From positions 1 to 64,000 of the forward strand of contig CAMHTW010000005.1 in NCBI GenBank assembly GCA_946188165.1: DNA of 64,000 bases. The letters run 5' to 3'. The stretch comes from an uncultured Prevotella sp. Lineage in GTDB: Bacteria; Bacteroidota; Bacteroidia; Bacteroidales; Bacteroidaceae. How positions within the stretch are numbered: position 1 is the stretch's first letter; each line of letters begins with the position of its first letter. The notes under the pieces were generated by a model. It was not told the DNA's origin. It did not search any database and was given only the letters and a program-made list of their open reading frames with translations. Both the position numbers and the translations under genes were made by a program. Below, piece by piece: positions 5,677-31,526 of this stretch.

Positions 5677-6429
5677 TTATCGTGATTCAACGAATTTCTT
5701 CTTTCCTTGTTGAATGTATATGCCCTTTGCAGGCTTTGAGGTTAGTTTGCGGCCTTGCAGATCGTAAATCTCTGAGGATGTCTCTGTTGGTGAAGAGGTT
5801 ATACTCGGAATATCAATCGAATCATAACCTCCCCAGCGGGGTAGACCAGTGTCTGGATATGAATATTTGAAATTTCCACTTTCGAAAATTTCATTTGCAC
5901 ATTCAATCGTGCCTATTTCACTATCCATAGTGAGGCGCAGAATATATGAAACAGTGTTGTCCCATGGCCATTCAAATATCCTATCAATTATAAGATTATA
6001 TTTTTCTATATACGAAGTCAGCAAGTCTATGTCCGCTGCTTTATATAATGTTACCAGTATTCGAGGGTAAAATATTATTTCAGTACTATCGCCCTCTTTA
6101 AAAAGGCCAGGAGTCACTATGACAGACTTTGCGTCTTCTTCCCAGAAATTCAGTGAAGTCAGTTTCTCGTAATCTTTCCGAGAAATATAAACCGAGAAGA
6201 GATCTTGCTCAGAAGCTTTGAACAGAGGTTGGACATTTGCAAGAATCCTCTTGGTTATTTCCTGCCAATTATCAGAATCTGTTAAAACATTGACAAGAAA
6301 TCTGTCTTCATTGAGGGTTATATTAATTTTTTTAGCATAACTGTCATAATAATAAGTTTGTGCTGTCGCATGTGTTGAACACATGATGAAAAGCAATAAC
6401 GATAAAAACAATTCTTTTTTCATAATCAT
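5677..6429 (-). CDS. Secreted protein with T9SS-type C-terminal segment
   Basis: Signal peptide; SSEIYDLQGRKLTSKPAKGIYIQQGKKKFVESR. Confidence 0.7.
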   Translation of the reverse strand: MIMKKELFLSLLLFIMCSTHATAQTYYYDSYAKKINITLNEDRFLVNVLTDSDNWQEITKRILANVQPLFKASEQDLFSVYISRKDYEKLTSLNFWEEDAKSVIVTPGLFKEGDSTEIIFYPRILVTLYKAADIDLLTSYIEKYNLIIDRIFEWPWDNTVSYILRLTMDSEIGTIECANEIFESGNFKYSYPDTGLPRWGGYDSIDIPSITSSPTETSSEIYDLQGRKLTSKPAKGIYIQQGKKKFVESR

Positions 6430-6481
6430 AGTAATTTAATAGATGATAAATTATAGCTTAGCTACTTAAAAATATTCTCCG

Positions 6482-7774
6482 TCACTCTTCTATTGTTAGT
6501 GTTGTGCCTAACGGCACTGTAGTCGAATTCTTAATTTTAACATATCGTCCCTGTAACATAATATTACCTTGACCAAGAACCACACTTCCGTATGGTTTAT
6601 CGTTGGTTACATTCTTTCCGATATATATTTTTTCTCCGGAAATGACCCTTGATCCTGTGATAGTATCATTTTGGATATATACATTTTCTGGAGTATAATA
6701 AACTGATTTATATGCGTCAACAAGGCCGTATCCATATTCGTTATTCCATGTTCCATAAGGCTTTATTTCAAAATTATAATTATTGCTGGTAATTCTTTTT
6801 GCATTTCTGCAAATAATATCATGAACTTGACTTACTGTCAATTCTGAATTACGTTGCAGGATTAATGCCGCGACTCCGGCAACATGAGGACAAGCCATGG
6901 ATGTACCACTTTTAGAGGCTGTTGTGTCATTAGGGATTGTTGAAATAATGCCAACTCCAGGGGCGACTAAATCAAGCTGTTCTCCATAGTTTGAATTCGG
7001 CCATCTTTTTCCATCATTTTTGATTGCGCCTACTGTAAGAATCATGTCATTGCAATTTGCAGGATATGACACATAGCTATTACCTTCATTCCCTGCAGCA
7101 AAGACAATAACACATCCTTTTCCATGACGCCCATTTGTGAGTGCATATTGTATGGCTGTATCTAAATTATTATTGATAACAGCACCCCAGGAACATGAAA
7201 TAACGTCAACGCCATGGTCGCAAGCCCATCTGATACCTTTTGCCAATTTCCAAGAGTTGATCTCATCCAGAGTCAATGAATTACTTATCGAAACGATTTT
7301 TGCATTAGGTGCAACCCCCGCAATATGAATGCCATTGTCCTTCACAGCTGCTGCAATCCCAGCACAATGTGTACCATGGGCATAATTATCATCAAAATAG
7401 TTGATGCAGCTAGGCTGTCCTGTTCTTGTATCATAACTGATACTATCAATATTAGCTGACAAATCTATATGATTCATATCTACGCCAGTATCAATAATTG
7501 CAATTTTTATATTTTTCCCTGTGAAATAATTCCATCTATTAGAATTCCATATAGGGCTCATATTAATGTCTTTTCCTGGATAAAGACTATTATAAAGTCC
7601 CCATTGCTGATAAAATAATGGGTCCGATGGGACAGAACGTGTTAAGTTGTTAACGCACAAGTCAGATTCTGATGCTATAACTTTTCCACAATAGTTAAAA
7701 TCCTTTTGCGCTATCGTATGTATTGAACATGAGATGATAAACAATATCATCAAATAATATTTCTTGCTCATCAT
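6482..7774 (-). CDS. S8 family serine peptidase (subtilase)
   Basis: AIIDTGVD, HGTHCAGIAAA, GTSMACPHVAGVAAL catalytic motifs. Confidence 0.95.
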   Translation of the reverse strand: MMSKKYYLMILFIISCSIHTIAQKDFNYCGKVIASESDLCVNNLTRSVPSDPLFYQQWGLYNSLYPGKDINMSPIWNSNRWNYFTGKNIKIAIIDTGVDMNHIDLSANIDSISYDTRTGQPSCINYFDDNYAHGTHCAGIAAAVKDNGIHIAGVAPNAKIVSISNSLTLDEINSWKLAKGIRWACDHGVDVISCSWGAVINNNLDTAIQYALTNGRHGKGCVIVFAAGNEGNSYVSYPANCNDMILTVGAIKNDGKRWPNSNYGEQLDLVAPGVGIISTIPNDTTASKSGTSMACPHVAGVAALILQRNSELTVSQVHDIICRNAKRITSNNYNFEIKPYGTWNNEYGYGLVDAYKSVYYTPENVYIQNDTITGSRVISGEKIYIGKNVTNDKPYGSVVLGQGNIMLQGRYVKIKNSTTVPLGTTLTIEE

Positions 7775-8973: not shown

Positions 8974-9112
8974 AATGTGCTCACACGGGGACAGATCTGT
9001 AAGTAGGCCCTCTATATGAATGCAAAAATAGTGAATAATAATGGTTTCTCCAAATAAATACAAGAAATTATAATAATAACCGATAAATTTACAGACTAAT
9101 CCATCCCGTAAA
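8974..9112. repeat. Copy A of a ~140-bp duplicated segment (upstream region plus 3' end of the DUF3244 gene)
   Basis: Near-identical to 29033-29171. Confidence 0.9.
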
Positions 9113-9595: not shown

Positions 9596-11224
9596 TTAGT
9601 ACAATTCGTAAAGAATTTCTGTTAATTCTGCTACTCCGCCCTTGTCTTTCTTGAAGACATCATGAAGGAGTTTGGAGCAGATTTGTGATACCCTGCCTTG
9701 GGTTATGTCCAGCATATTGCTTACTTCCTTTGATTTAAAACCCAAACGGAACAACATACAAACGTTGAAGTCCTTCACGCTGATTTTGTATTGTTTGGAT
9801 ATGAGCAAATTATTAAACTCTGGCAGAGCCTCAAGTACTAACTTTCGACAATCTTGTAGTTCTTGAACAGTTAGCTTCTGCCCAAACTGTTTTTTCTGCA
9901 GACACTGATAAATTGCTGATTCCTTGATATGTTTCTCTTTAGCTGCATGGTCTTGCAGTGATTTCTTTTGCTGTTCTTGAAGTTTCAAACTCTGTTCTTT
10001 AAGAAGACTTTCTTTTTTAGCTATTAATTCTTCGTATTCTTCGGCATGAACTCTAAGTTGAAGGACTTCGGTCTGTGTTTGTTCCAATTCCTCAAGGTTT
10101 TGGAGATACTGTGCTTGCTTCTTTTTCTTTTCCTCGTACATGGTGTAAATAATACGGGAAGCTACTATTACAATCAGAACCAGCAATGCTATGGTAAACT
10201 GGCGCTTTGACTTCTCGTCAGAAGCTCTTTCTTTTTCCTGTTGGGCGATTTTCTGATGACGTGTGTAGTCATACATCGCCTGCATACGCTCCACTTCTTT
10301 TGTTGTCCTTTGGGCATAGAGAGAATCAAGCATAGTATAAGCATAAAGGGCATATTTGGCGGAAGAATCAGGCAGATTGAGATGTTGGTAGAACTCTGAC
10401 AATCCTGTTGCAGCAGCATTTTGATTGTTATAGTCCTTACCATCATGCAACTCTTTACGGAAATAGTATTCTGCAGTGTCCAATACGTTTGTATGTAGAA
10501 AATATAGTCCTTTTATTTTATAATAGATTTCACGCCCTTTTTGTATGTTCCCAAGAGAATCAAAGTATCCGGATTCAGATTCATAGATTTGCATATTTTG
10601 TTTTGCCTTGCCAAATTCCTGGCGATGAATAAGAGTACTAAGAGTACTATATAGTGCAATAGCTGCATAGTGGGGATAGCCGTAATTGCGATAAAGTTGG
10701 GAAACATGTTCACATATATATAATAATGAGTCTGGCATATTAAGGTTACGGTATGCCTGACTTTCCTGTTCATAGCTCATCAATGCCGCAAGTGTATCCT
10801 TACCTATCCACGCATATTTTGAGGATAATCGTTGGTAAACCAATTGTTCTCTATAAAGTCCTTGTTCGTAGAAAACCTGTGCCATTTGGGCAAATACTCG
10901 ACAAAGTTGGGCATAGTTGCAGTCGGCGGCGGTGGTGTCTGCACAGTCGGCGGCATCCTGATAGCACTGGAGGGCCATAGGTGCCTCGCCGTGGTCGTAG
11001 TAGGCAAGGCCAAGGAGGTAGTGGGCCAGCAGGCGGTCGTTGGGCGTGCCGTGCTCATCGAAGAACTCGACATAAGGCTGTACGTCTTTGACGGTGAAGG
11101 GCTGCCCCGATTGGTTGCGCCCGTTGATGCTGTCGAGAGCAGCACGCATACGGTTGCGGTCAGCCTCGGTAGTGCAACAGGTAAGCGCCAACAGAAGGAC
11201 GAAGATGGTCAGCAGATGTTTCAT
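9596..11224 (-). CDS. TPR-containing transmembrane regulator with C-terminal HTH
   Basis: TPR-like N-terminus, TM helix, coiled coil, LuxR-like FRLGFKSKEVSNMLDITQGRVSQICSKL. Confidence 0.75.
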   Translation of the reverse strand: MKHLLTIFVLLLALTCCTTEADRNRMRAALDSINGRNQSGQPFTVKDVQPYVEFFDEHGTPNDRLLAHYLLGLAYYDHGEAPMALQCYQDAADCADTTAADCNYAQLCRVFAQMAQVFYEQGLYREQLVYQRLSSKYAWIGKDTLAALMSYEQESQAYRNLNMPDSLLYICEHVSQLYRNYGYPHYAAIALYSTLSTLIHRQEFGKAKQNMQIYESESGYFDSLGNIQKGREIYYKIKGLYFLHTNVLDTAEYYFRKELHDGKDYNNQNAAATGLSEFYQHLNLPDSSAKYALYAYTMLDSLYAQRTTKEVERMQAMYDYTRHQKIAQQEKERASDEKSKRQFTIALLVLIVIVASRIIYTMYEEKKKKQAQYLQNLEELEQTQTEVLQLRVHAEEYEELIAKKESLLKEQSLKLQEQQKKSLQDHAAKEKHIKESAIYQCLQKKQFGQKLTVQELQDCRKLVLEALPEFNNLLISKQYKISVKDFNVCMLFRLGFKSKEVSNMLDITQGRVSQICSKLLHDVFKKDKGGVAELTEILYELY

Positions 11225-11285
11225 AGCAAGTGCAAAGATACAAAATTAATTAAGAATTAAGAGTTAAGAATTAAGAATTATTTCG

Positions 11286-11293
11286 TATCTTTG
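11286..11293 (+). promoter_or_regulatory. Bacteroidetes -7 box (TATCTTTG)
   Basis: TAnnTTTG, 8 nt before the 11302 start codon. Confidence 0.6.
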
Positions 11294-11301
11294 CAATAGT
11301 T

Positions 11302-12741: not shown

Positions 12742-13893
12742 ATGGAAGAGATTCAGATTTGGATTGAACAACTGGTAGAGACATGTGGCGTGACTGGCGA
12801 CACTGTCAACTTTGTAACCCATACCATTTTGGTATTATTAGCCTTTGCATTGGCCTTCCTGGCTGGTTGGCTATGCAGTAAACTGCTGATTCCCATTGTA
12901 CTGAGACTGACCAAGAAAACAGAAACCAAGTGGGACGATGTGATGTTCAACGAACGCGTGTTGAAGTCGGCTTGTAGCATCGTGCCCGCCATTGTTATAT
13001 GGCAGTTGCTGCCTTGGACGTTCTTCGACTTCCCTACTGTTCGTGAGGTGTTGACGCGTCTGACAGGCATCTACATTACCATCATGTCGGCACGTACCCT
13101 CATTGTATTCAGCGACTCCATGAAGCAGTTGGAGTCTAATACACAACGGTCTGCCCGTCAACAATATATGCACTCACTATGTGGGGTACTGAAGATTATC
13201 ATCATCTTCATTGCTGTCATCGTGGTGGTAGCCATCATCATCGACAAGAATCCTGCTACGCTCTTTGCTGGACTGGGTGCAGCGTCAGCCATCTTGATGC
13301 TGGCCTTTCAAGACACCATCAAAGGACTGGTGGCTGGCATTCGTCTGACATCCAACGACATGCTGCATGTAGGCGACTGGATTACCGTTGCCTCGGCTGG
13401 TGCCAATGGTCGTGTAGAGGATATCACGCTGACAACTGTCAAGGTACGCAACTTCGACAACACCATCGTCACAGTATCCCCCCAAACTTTGGTTGACGGT
13501 TCATTCCAAAACTGGATTGGCATGGAACAGAACGAGGGACGTAAGCAATCGCGCCGTATCTTCTTTGACTTCCGCTCTATCCATCTGGATGACGACGGTG
13601 TGGCCAATATTACCAAATTCCGCACGCATCTGGAACAATGGCTGCGTGAGAATCCTAAGGTTATGGGCGACAAAAATCCGTTGGTACGACATGCTGAGGC
13701 CTCGCAAGGTGGCTGTTGTATGGAGCTGACCTTCTGGCTGCATGCGCAGGCATGGAATGACTTCGAACACGACACGGCAGACATCATGGAATATGTTTTT
13801 GCTGCTGCCAACGAATATGGTCTGCGTATCTACCAGCAGTTCCCTGATCAAAAGCCCACCCTCTGCCCCTCCCGAGCGGGAGGGGAGTTATAA
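12742..13893 (+). CDS. MscS family mechanosensitive ion channel
   Basis: AGLGAASAILMLAFQDTIKGLVAGIRLTSNDMLHVGDWITV. Confidence 0.92.
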   Translation: MEEIQIWIEQLVETCGVTGDTVNFVTHTILVLLAFALAFLAGWLCSKLLIPIVLRLTKKTETKWDDVMFNERVLKSACSIVPAIVIWQLLPWTFFDFPTVREVLTRLTGIYITIMSARTLIVFSDSMKQLESNTQRSARQQYMHSLCGVLKIIIIFIAVIVVVAIIIDKNPATLFAGLGAASAILMLAFQDTIKGLVAGIRLTSNDMLHVGDWITVASAGANGRVEDITLTTVKVRNFDNTIVTVSPQTLVDGSFQNWIGMEQNEGRKQSRRIFFDFRSIHLDDDGVANITKFRTHLEQWLRENPKVMGDKNPLVRHAEASQGGCCMELTFWLHAQAWNDFEHDTADIMEYVFAAANEYGLRIYQQFPDQKPTLCPSRAGGEL

Positions 13894-13978
13894 GGGAAAA
13901 GTGAAAAATGTAAAAAAACCCACCCCCTGCCCCTCCCGAGCGGGAGGGGAGTTATAAGGGAAAAGTGAAAAATGTAAA
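13856..13978. repeat. Tandem duplicate (~61 bp x2) containing GC-rich palindrome P4; first copy encodes the mscS C-terminus and stop
   Basis: ccctcccgagcgggaggggagttataagggaaaagtgaaaaatgtaaaa twice. Confidence 0.95.
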
Positions 13979-13990
13979 ATTGTGAATAAT

Positions 13991-27239: not shown

Positions 27240-27342
27240 AGTGCAAAGGTAATGAAATTATGCATAATAACAAAGAAAAAACAACCTAAAAGTTGTGTAA
27301 TTCGAATAAATTGTTTAACTTTGCCCCCAAAAGGAAGTGATT

Positions 27343-27894
27343 ATGACTTATGATAGCATAACTGAGGACGGAAGGCTTTGGGCAGTCAAATACGATGATT
27401 GTCCTGATAATGCGCTCTACATGCTCTTTGAACAGTGGAATGATGTGGCATGGCTCTACCAATTCTTTAAGGAGAATATGGCAGACTTAATGTCGTATTT
27501 TAAGATCACAGATGTCAACGAGGCTATTTACGATACTATAGAGGACAGTGAACGACTGCAATGTCTGATTATGGACATCTCGCCAGAGGCGGACTTGGAC
27601 AAACTATTCAGGCCCTTAGAGAATAGTCGTTTTGCTGATATGCTGCTTGGCAAGGAAAAAGCTCGGTTGAAGGATGTTTCTAAGCATGCCTCATGGCTAA
27701 GAATATACGCTATCAAGCTGGAACCAGGAATCTATGTCATTACGGGTGGAGCCATTAAGCTTACCCGTACCATGCAGGAACGAGAACATACGCTTCGTGA
27801 GTTGGCTAAGATGGAGAAAGTGCGCTCCCATCTATTGACTAATAATATAGTTGATAAGGATTCCTTTGATGATTACATGAGTGAATTAATTTGA
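27343..27894 (+). CDS. Putative toxin of a HigBA-like pair
   Basis: HASWLRIYAIKLEPGIYVITGGAIKLTRTMQERE pattern; followed by XRE-type gene. Confidence 0.6.
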   Translation: MTYDSITEDGRLWAVKYDDCPDNALYMLFEQWNDVAWLYQFFKENMADLMSYFKITDVNEAIYDTIEDSERLQCLIMDISPEADLDKLFRPLENSRFADMLLGKEKARLKDVSKHASWLRIYAIKLEPGIYVITGGAIKLTRTMQEREHTLRELAKMEKVRSHLLTNNIVDKDSFDDYMSELI

Positions 27895-27913
27895 TATAGA
27901 AAAGGAGGTTAAT

Positions 27914-28222
27914 ATGAAAGAAGTAATCGCACGACTGAAAGAACATCAGTCACCGACTCCTTCAAAATGGAGGGAAAGGGCAGAGTGGAGGCAGCAGAAC
28001 AAATCGTGGTTGCGGCACTCCCAGCGTATTGCAGTGAAAATGCTTGAGAAGATGGATGAACTGGGATTAACTCAGAAACAATTGGCAGAACTGATGGGAT
28101 GTAGCCAGCAATACGTTTCAAAGGTTCTGAAAGGTCAGGAGAATCTTTCTCTCGAAACCATGTCGAAGATAGAAGACTGTCTGCACATTTCTATTCTCAA
28201 AGAAGAGTTGGAGATGGCATAA
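27914..28222 (+). CDS. XRE-family HTH protein, putative antitoxin
   Basis: MDELGLTQKQLAELMGCSQQYVSKVLKGQENLSLETMSKIEDCL. Confidence 0.8.
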   Translation: MKEVIARLKEHQSPTPSKWRERAEWRQQNKSWLRHSQRIAVKMLEKMDELGLTQKQLAELMGCSQQYVSKVLKGQENLSLETMSKIEDCLHISILKEELEMA

Positions 28223-28504: not shown

Positions 28505-28783
28505 TTATTTTGCTACATATTCACCAATACCGTGGTTAGAACCTTTTCGATAAGAATATATCCATAAATGATTATAAAAACAAAAAACAATATAACCAGA
28601 CTTCTCCTGATTCTTGTATATGAAAGGCCATTTTAATACAAAGTAGTTGGTATCGTTAAAATGTACAAAATCTGAAATACGCCCTCCACCATTGCTTTTC
28701 CAATAATATTGCTTTATGTGTATTGGGGTATTGAAATACAAAATTAGGATAATCGGTATGATTGCTAAATATTTTTTTTTCAT
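28505..28783 (-). CDS. Small hypothetical protein with N-terminal TM/signal segment
   Basis: MKKKYLAIIPIILILYFNTPIHIKQYYW; A9 run right after ATG. Confidence 0.45.
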   Translation of the reverse strand: MKKKYLAIIPIILILYFNTPIHIKQYYWKSNGGGRISDFVHFNDTNYFVLKWPFIYKNQEKSGYIVFCFYNHLWIYSYRKGSNHGIGEYVAK

Positions 28784-28784
28784 T

Positions 28785-29006
28785 TTAGTATCTTTTCCCG
28801 GGTTGATAATAGTTTCCAAGATATCCACGTCCATTATAGCTTCTTCTCATTGAAGGAGTGGGAATTCCATGATAGAATGCTTGCAATCCTTCTCCTTTAT
28901 TACCTCCGACCATATTTCCATTATAGTAATAATAATAAGTTTGTGCTGTCGCATGTATTGAACACATGATGAAAAACATCAACGATAAAAACAATTCTTT
29001 TTTCAT
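28785..29006 (-). CDS. Short secreted Gly/Tyr-rich protein sharing its signal peptide with the 5677-6429 gene
   Basis: MKKELFLSLMFFIMCSIHATAQTYYYYY vs MKKELFLSLLLFIMCSTHATAQTYYYDS. Confidence 0.5.
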   Translation of the reverse strand: MKKELFLSLMFFIMCSIHATAQTYYYYYNGNMVGGNKGEGLQAFYHGIPTPSMRRSYNGRGYLGNYYQPGKRY

Positions 29007-29032
29007 AATCATAGTAATTTAATAGATGATAA

Positions 29033-29171
29033 ATGTGCTCACACGTGGACAGATCTGTAAGTAGGCCCTCTATATGAATGCAAAATTAGTGAATAATAAT
29101 GGTTTCTCCAAATAAATAAAAGAAATTATAATAATAACCGATAAATTTATAGATTAATCCATCCCGAAAAA
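29033..29171. repeat. Copy B of the duplicated upstream segment, including remnant of the DUF3244 3' end
   Basis: gtgctcacacgtggacagatctgtaagtaggccctctatatgaatgcaaaattagtgaataataatgg... matches 8974-9112. Confidence 0.9.
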
Positions 29172-29249: not shown

Positions 29250-29546
29250 TGGAAAGTGACGTTGATACGAGTGAAAGGTGACGATGATACAGGGGGAAAG
29301 TGACTCGCTTACAGGGAGTAAGTGACGTTTGGGCAGGGAGAGAGTCAATCTCTTGCGCGAAAGCAGCGAGCGTGTCTTTAATCAGCAGCGGGCGCTGCTG
29401 ATATCGGCGGCGGGCGTGTCTAAAGTCGGCAGCGTTCGCTGCGTACCAGTTTTTATGTGAGAGTTACTTTCAACATGGCGAACTCATGGCTTTGGAGATA
29501 GGGCTCGCCTAGAGAGGTCTATGAGAAGTCCATGAGAGGTCCATAA
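29250..29546. repeat. Three consecutive degenerate tandem-repeat families (~22-bp GGAAAGTGACG type; CAGCGGGCG type; 11-bp GAGAGGTCCAT type)
   Basis: Periodicity read by eye. Confidence 0.75.
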
Positions 29547-29600
29547 GCAAGGTTTGAGGAATTATTTCGTAATTTACACGCTAAATTAATAAAAAATGTG

Positions 29601-29608
29601 TATCTTTG
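29601..29608 (+). promoter_or_regulatory. Bacteroidetes -7 box (TATCTTTG)
   Basis: Upstream of GH67 start at 29631. Confidence 0.55.
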
Positions 29609-29630
29609 CGCCATAGAACTTATAAACGTT

Positions 29631-31526
29631 ATGAAGAAACTGATATTATCATTGTTTGTTGCCTGCCTCGCACTGACAGCCAGTGCTGAGGACGGACACC
29701 AGTTATGGCTGCGTTTTCAGCCTGTGAACAAAGCCAAGGTTACCACACCCAAGCAGACGCCCGTCATCAATACGGCTCAGAAGGAGTTGGAGACATACTA
29801 TCAAGGCGGGAGTGTTACCTTGAAGTTGGATACCTCGCTGCCTGACGGTGACGGTTTCAGCATTGAAATCAAAGGGGGCAATACCACTATTACGGCTTAT
29901 CAGGAAAGTGGTTTGCTATATGGGGCATACACCCTGTTGCGCCAACAAGCCATAAACCCTGTGGCCAACTATAAAGTCCATAGCGACCCTGCCTTTGCCC
30001 TGCGCCTGTTGAACCATTGGGACAACCCAGATGGCAGTATTGAACGAGGCTATGCCGGCAAGAGCATCTTCGAGTGGTTTAACCTGGACGAGCAACTGAT
30101 TAAGGAATATGCCCGTGCCAATGCGTCGATAGGCATCAACGGCTCTGTGCTGAACAATGTGAATGCTTCGCCTAAGATGCTGACGACGGAATACCTGAAA
30201 GAGGTAAAGAAGATTGCCGACATCCTGCGTCCATATAATATCAAGGTGTACCTGAGTATCAACTTCGCCTCGCCAATGGCGCTTAAAGAGACAAAGACTG
30301 CCGACCCGCTGGACAAGAGCGTCGTGAAATGGTGGCAGAAGAAAGCCAAGGAAATCTATAAGCTCATTCCTGACTTTGGCGGATTCCTGGTCAAAGCCAA
30401 CAGCGAGGGACAGCCTGGTCCTGGCGACTATCATCGTACACATGCTGAGGGTGCCAACATGCTGGCTGACGCTTTGAAGCCCTACAAGGGTATCGTTATG
30501 TGGCGCTGCTTTGTATATGGTGCCAACCATAAGGGCGAGGATCGTGTGAAGCAGGCCGTATCGGAATTCAAGCCCCTCGACGGACAGTTCCGCGACAATG
30601 TCATTCTGCAAACCAAGAACGGTCCGCTCGACTTCCAGCCTCGCGAGCCATACAGCCCTATCTTCGACCAAATCAAGCAGACGCCTAACATGGTGGAACT
30701 GCAAATCACACAAGAGTATTTAGGACAGAGCCGCCATCTGGTATATCTCGCTCCGATGTGGCAGGAATTCTTCTCGTTTGTAAATCCCTCATCCCTAAAA
30801 GGTATCGCTGGTGTAGCAAACATTGGATTGGACCGTAACTGGTGCGGACACCATTTCTCGCAGGCCAACTGGTATGCCTTCGGTCGTCTGGCGTGGAACC
30901 CGCATCTGCTATCGTTAGACATCGCCAAAGAGTGGCTGGCACAGACCTTCAGCACCGATAAGACATTCATCAACGACATGGCTACCTGGATGGAAACCAG
31001 CCGCGAAGCCTGCGTCAACTACATGATGCCGCTGGGTCTGCACCACATCTTCAAGTTCGACCACCACTACGGTCCAGAACCCGACGGCTTCAAGGCCTCG
31101 TATCCGCTGGAGTGGTGCCCCGTCTATTACCACAAAGCCGATAAGAACGGCGTAGGCTTCGACCGCTCGAGCAAGGGCACCGATGCCGTCAGCCAGTACC
31201 GGGGACACCTCGCACGCACCTATAACAATATAGAGACCTGCCCCGAGGAACTGTTGCTGTGGTTCCATCATGTGCCTTGGGACTATAAGATGAAGGATGG
31301 CTCCACGTTGTGGGAGTCGTTGCAGTATCACTATAACAACGGCGTCATTTGGACGGAGTCGTTGCAGAACGACTGGCACAACAAGATGCGCCACTACATC
31401 GACGAGCAGCGTTGGCGTGAAGTTGACGAGCGCCTACAGCACCAGGTAGAGAACGCCCGCGAATGGCGCGACGTCTGCCTGAAGTACTTCGGAAGTTTTG
31501 CTGAAAAGAGTACAACGACCAAATAA
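29631..31526 (+). CDS. GH67 alpha-glucuronidase
   Basis: ESGLLYGAYTLLRQQ, RLLNHWDNPDGSIERGYAGKSIF, GFLVKANSEGQPGPGDY. Confidence 0.95.
   Translation: MKKLILSLFVACLALTASAEDGHQLWLRFQPVNKAKVTTPKQTPVINTAQKELETYYQGGSVTLKLDTSLPDGDGFSIEIKGGNTTITAYQESGLLYGAYTLLRQQAINPVANYKVHSDPAFALRLLNHWDNPDGSIERGYAGKSIFEWFNLDEQLIKEYARANASIGINGSVLNNVNASPKMLTTEYLKEVKKIADILRPYNIKVYLSINFASPMALKETKTADPLDKSVVKWWQKKAKEIYKLIPDFGGFLVKANSEGQPGPGDYHRTHAEGANMLADALKPYKGIVMWRCFVYGANHKGEDRVKQAVSEFKPLDGQFRDNVILQTKNGPLDFQPREPYSPIFDQIKQTPNMVELQITQEYLGQSRHLVYLAPMWQEFFSFVNPSSLKGIAGVANIGLDRNWCGHHFSQANWYAFGRLAWNPHLLSLDIAKEWLAQTFSTDKTFINDMATWMETSREACVNYMMPLGLHHIFKFDHHYGPEPDGFKASYPLEWCPVYYHKADKNGVGFDRSSKGTDAVSQYRGHLARTYNNIETCPEELLLWFHHVPWDYKMKDGSTLWESLQYHYNNGVIWTESLQNDWHNKMRHYIDEQRWREVDERLQHQVENAREWRDVCLKYFGSFAEKSTTTK

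Follow-up and report, generated by a model that had tools for sequence, protein, structure and literature searches.

Organization of the two loci

The window analysed here is a 64,000-nucleotide stretch of the genome of an uncultured Prevotella sp. (GenBank assembly GCA_946188165.1, contig CAMHTW010000005.1, positions 1 to 64,000), in which two loci share short, closely similar segments (Table 1). Locus one, on the minus strand, comprises a regulator (9596-11224), a DUF3244 gene, an S74 gene with a T9SS sorting tail, a subtilase, a secreted protein with no Pfam assignment (5677-6423) and a second S74 gene. Locus two is compact, with a chimeric open reading frame (ORF) followed by an intact homologue of immunity proteins, and it is flanked by two genes at 27337-28222, the last of which encodes an HTH protein, and by a GH67 gene (29598-31526). 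Among the ORFs of the window that were read or scanned there was no recombinase.

Three further features of the surrounding DNA were recorded. The pair at 27337-28222 is a two-gene module whose small HTH protein comes last, resembling toxin-antitoxin pairs of the HigB/HigA type, and it adjoins locus two within a segment that varies between species. A tandem duplication of 66 bp (97% identical) occupies positions 13850-13979. The sequence at 11230-11296, located 5' of 11300 (agaattaagaattatttcgtatctttgca), matches about 50 places in the contigs of a close relative (G241), and is apparently a repeated promoter-like sequence.

Table 1. Features of locus two and of their sources in locus one (window coordinates)
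Feature	Coordinates	Strand	Remarks
Intact immunity-protein homologue	28505..28783	-	92 aa; membrane-anchor-like segment at the N-terminus; begins 1 nt past the stop codon of the chimeric ORF
Chimeric ORF	28785..29006	-	73 aa; signal peptide (MKKELFLSLMFFIMCSIHATAQT), then in frame ~48 residues from the C-terminus of a toxin domain of the Rhs type; from translation and toxin profile
Copy of 5' UTR, start codon and signal peptide from the stand-alone prodomain gene	28926..29034	-	source 6343-6451
Junction microhomology AAT	29032..29034	.	common to both source pieces
Duplicated segment from 5' of the S74 gene	29032..29170	-	last five DUF3244 codons, intergenic region with promoter, part of the 5' UTR; source 8974-9112
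Bacteroidetes-type promoter match, TTTG-N20-TAATTTTG	29081..29112	-	consensus match within the duplicated 139-bp segment; counterpart 9023-9054
Donor gene, stand-alone homologue of the N-terminal prodomain fused to subtilase in other species	5677..6423	-	C-terminal YDLQGR...GIYI tail
Source of 5' UTR and signal peptide, locus one	6343..6451	-	self-BLAST
Source of promoter segment, locus one	8974..9112	-	self-BLAST

Shared segments and their junction

A preliminary description of this DNA had claimed that two pieces of locus two nearly match two pieces of locus one, and a self-BLAST of the window reproduced both matches, with 95.7% identity over 139 bp (E = 1e-58) for the promoter segment and 95.4% over 109 bp (E = 1e-43) for the segment bearing the signal peptide; these are the top two non-trivial repeat pairs in the window. 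Also confirmed was that the source pieces, which are 2.5 kb apart in locus one, adjoin in locus two at GATAAAT/GTGCTCAC, and that the last codons of DUF3244 are retained (GWISL* in locus one, GWINL* in locus two). Inspection of the junction for microhomology, suggested in the same description, revealed on base-by-base comparison a 3-bp AAT overlap present in both sources. The two pieces have diverged alike from their sources (6/139 and 5/109 differences), which fits a single event. The preliminary description was right that a rearrangement of the duplication type brought a promoter region and a signal peptide together and joined them to another mature sequence. The shared part amounts to just 245 bp, with no other similarity in the window self-BLAST or the genome search, so the view of locus two as a second copy of the whole secreted-protein locus could not be maintained.

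A third copy of either piece was not found anywhere in the genome (G000, a single genome in 98 contigs, not closed and ~90% complete), in which the other matches to them are short, weak and 75-81% identical, one of them being the subtilase gene's paralogous signal peptide (7683-7743). Searches of viral contigs likewise found no locus-two junction, and it is not seen in a second strain.

The promoter pattern TTTG-N19-21-TAnnTTTG occurs ten times in the window, against about 0.65 occurrences expected from first-order Markov shuffles, and two of the ten are the copies of locus one and locus two. Judged by this consensus match, the promoter of locus two would be the one carried inside the 139-bp piece.

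Near the junction, both loci contain a palindrome, ACAGATCTGT with GGGGACAG arm, at 8988-9000 and 29046-29059. It recurs as CACGGGGACAGACCTGTCCCC 5' of a prodomain gene in another genome (G119:C67:6201-6216), and its core is rare in the genomes examined. A REP-like mobile element at the junction (GGGGACAGAYCTGTCCCC) was considered and rejected, since its core is rare in G000 and its relatives and thus does not represent a repeat family.

Locus one and its stand-alone prodomain gene

The protein encoded at 5677-6423 aligns over 174-193 aa, with 38-41% identity, to the N-terminal regions of pro-subtilases from three other genomes (G116, G119 and G198; E = 1.5e-36 to 2e-26). A synteny comparison with other species and with G241, as had been proposed, found the order of locus one (regulator, DUF3244, S74, pro-subtilase, stand-alone prodomain) in G116:C16, and part of it in G198:C121 (S74, pro-subtilase, prodomain) and G119:C82 (S74, pro-subtilase). 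This recurrence of the gene order indicates that locus two derives from locus one; on these comparisons locus one is an old module of patchy distribution, from which the shared pieces originate. In G241, a close relative by sequence whose flanking genes are 83-95% identical at the DNA level, homology ends at window position 29523 by locus two and at 11282 beside locus one. Both loci are therefore located in species-variable segments, and neither forms an ancestral part of that backbone.

Compared with its relatives, the subtilase of locus one (6482-7774) has lost ~130 prodomain residues in frame while keeping its signal peptide and the motifs of the catalytic triad, and the intact stand-alone prodomain homologue lies directly downstream of it. 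A separate gene has apparently taken over the prodomain, and the product of 5677-6423 may possibly act in trans on the subtilase. Neither PDB nor Pfam offered anything useful for the prodomain, and a fold search with a single-sequence structure model (pLDDT 47) found nothing convincing (no hit with E <= 0.001; TM about 0.2). No relatives of the prodomain or of the toxin described below were found in viral contigs.

A toxin remnant followed by an immunity gene

The only matches to the mature part of the chimeric ORF are the C-terminal ends of long ORFs in three other genomes (G119:C31, G236:C73 and G233:C27), the first two of which contain an Rhs-associated core domain (TIGR03696, E = 3.5e-16 and 3.7e-17), the third being a shortened toxin ORF. 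A profile built from five intact toxin domains (alignment A4) picked this ORF alone among 1771 six-frame segments of the window (E = 1.6e-9), with a match limited to profile positions 177-226 of 226. The tail, a single example from one genome, is 45-49% identical to its relatives and ends where they do, at YYQPG[KR].. and the stop codon. Its fusion to the signal peptide is in frame and falls at Tyr-rich codons, the position being known to within about 6 codons. The signal peptide itself is intact, with a plausible AXA-type cleavage site, and differs from the locus-one copy by mostly amino-acid-changing substitutions. No Rhs core motif (DPxGx) precedes the toxin part of the ORF, as the signal peptide runs straight into the tail.

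The invariant residues of the toxin domain, H80 and C125 in the numbering of A4, lie upstream of the retained tail and are both absent from the chimeric ORF. With the conserved His/Cys region gone, the product of 73 aa is expected to be inactive and hence non-toxic. Neither a full toxin of the tail's type, which could sit in the missing part, nor an Rhs core was found in the ~90% complete genome.

Homologues of the gene at 28505-28783 occur directly 3' of the toxin gene in G119:C31, G236:C73 (64% identity) and G233:C27, and it scores E = 1.9e-31 against an immunity profile from which the window protein had been left out. The order of the chimeric ORF tail and this gene is the classical one of toxin followed by immunity gene. 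In G070, G030 and two other Prevotellaceae records, too, an immunity homologue stands without a toxin. A first immunity alignment (A1) was too divergent for a contig scan, and the scan with a closer one (A2) returned four loci, at least two of them already seen. On the features examined, namely its homology and the failure to find a cognate toxin, the gene counts as an orphan polymorphic-toxin immunity gene.

The parent toxin family was also surveyed. In three genomes (G671, G613 and G561; loci L104-L106) the toxin domain is complete, carries its own signal peptide and a truncated Rhs motif, and is followed by an immunity gene. In these and in two further loci (L089, 6003-6680; L090, 1432-2127) the Rhs-borne domain shows the invariant motifs WSH..DGP and FYGC. 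It has no sequence match in Pfam or PDB, and its single-sequence model reached a pLDDT of 33; on comparison with clan CD, the motif WSH[SA]..DGP...FYGC recalls caspase-like peptidases of that clan, a resemblance that is only suggestive. In one contig (G119:C67), toxin, immunity gene and prodomain gene stand in a row.

Proposed capture of an expression leader and competing explanations

We consider it likely that locus two is an orphan immunity gene provided with an expression leader captured from a protease operon, the truncated toxin tail forming part of that leader as a translated sequence. In this view, the promoter region of the S74-subtilase-prodomain operon was copied along with the start and signal peptide of the operon's last gene, and the copy became attached to the 3' end of a toxin gene of the Rhs type, immediately before the immunity gene of that toxin. 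The captured promoter would then drive transcription through the 73-codon ORF. Since this ORF ends 1 nt before the immunity start codon, the toxin remnant may act as a translated leader coupled to the immunity gene. The immunity protein, presumably membrane-anchored and facing the periplasm, would protect the cell from toxin delivered by neighbours. A plausible history is that a locus-one segment was duplicated beside an Rhs array and then underwent two deletions or template switches at short matches (compare the row of three genes in G119:C67). The joints would have formed at the 3-bp AAT observed at the junction and at the Tyr-rich codons where signal peptide and toxin are fused.

The main rival is plain decay, according to which locus two is the debris of a collapsed toxin array with no selected function, and the immunity gene has just not yet been broken. 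The reduction of the toxin to its tail, the lack of any remaining Rhs core in the genome, the mostly amino-acid-changing differences between the signal peptides and the position in a species-variable region all agree with it, but the immunity ORF is intact and well conserved (as its identity to the G236 homologue indicates), signal peptide and tail share one reading frame and the rearrangement brought a promoter match along, so that we regard decay as a serious though rather unlikely explanation. It is considerably less probable that the chimeric ORF is a working secreted peptide, such as an antibacterial or a decoy binding the immunity protein or an incoming toxin: its signal peptide is intact and the cleavage site plausible, its ~48 open codons match the toxin consensus, and solo signal-peptide toxins with an intact domain exist in G671, G613 and G561, but only the extreme C-terminus was kept here, with no conserved catalytic residue, and a single example was found.

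Two other readings concern the direction of the rearrangement and the assembly. The preliminary description had offered three origins, among which insertion of the S74/S8 genes at locus one was rejected given the conservation of gene order in other species, which leaves a copy of locus one altered by deletion or template switching. In the form in which locus two is ancestral, with the S74 and subtilase genes inserted between promoter and prodomain gene, insertion could appeal to the palindrome ACAGAYCTGTCCCC found 5' of the prodomain start in both locus two and G119:C67; it is nevertheless disfavoured and very improbable, as the order of regulator, DUF3244, S74, pro-subtilase and prodomain recurs in G116 and partly in G198 and G119:C82, and the locus-two chimera ends in a foreign toxin tail. 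A chimera in the assembly of this metagenome-derived genome, with its 98 contigs, incomplete and not closed, seems just as improbable, because a misjoin would not create copies 4-5% different from their sources; moreover, the reading frame continues through the fusion, and the tail stops at the very point where its relatives stop, just before the matching immunity gene.

A broader reading, which appears improbable, is that the fusion reflects a selected way for orphan immunity genes to acquire the promoter and translation start of secreted-protein operons, with the toxin tail retained either as a coupling leader or as a secreted decoy. Captured leaders of this kind would then be a general means for Prevotellaceae to stay immune once the toxin is lost.

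Identification of the toxin tail and its immunity gene explains what had been a puzzling rearranged duplicate, and points to a Rhs-borne toxin family not listed in Pfam, together with its immunity family.

Comparison with known systems

Orphan immunity genes and arrays left by displaced effectors have been described for the type VI secretion system (T6SS) of Vibrio cholerae (PMC5361080), and orphan immunity (rAID) arrays for Bacteroidales (PMC12247911). Locus two resembles them in having an immunity gene without its toxin, presumably protecting from neighbours, and in its formation by recombination that removed most of the effector. It differs in being a single gene with no adjoining recombinase or array, whereas rAID arrays combine a tyrosine recombinase with several immunity genes, and in drawing its leader from an unrelated secreted-protease operon.

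Orphan rhs-CT modules are known from Salmonella LT2 (PMC3967940; PMC3150448), where recombination provides orphan Rhs fragments with the signals for translation initiation and export that they lack (PMC3967940). There too a displaced 3' Rhs fragment is followed by an immunity gene, and rearrangement supplies the start and export signals. At locus two, in contrast, only the last ~48 toxin residues are left, with no Rhs core motif, the start and export signals come from a non-Rhs gene, and it is the immunity gene, not the toxin, that would have been rescued. With neither an Rhs motif nor a complete toxin domain, locus two is not an orphan rhs-CT toxin. The solo signal-peptide Rhs-CT toxins of G671, G613 and G561 share with it the signal peptide, the toxin family and the order of toxin and immunity gene, but in them a truncated Rhs motif persists and the toxin domain is complete, while locus two has lost the domain.

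Orphan immunity genes are thus already known, and what is new, to a modest degree, is the architecture in which an expression leader has apparently been captured. Locus two illustrates how an immunity gene may outlive its toxin, by acquiring a promoter and a start from an operon unrelated to it.
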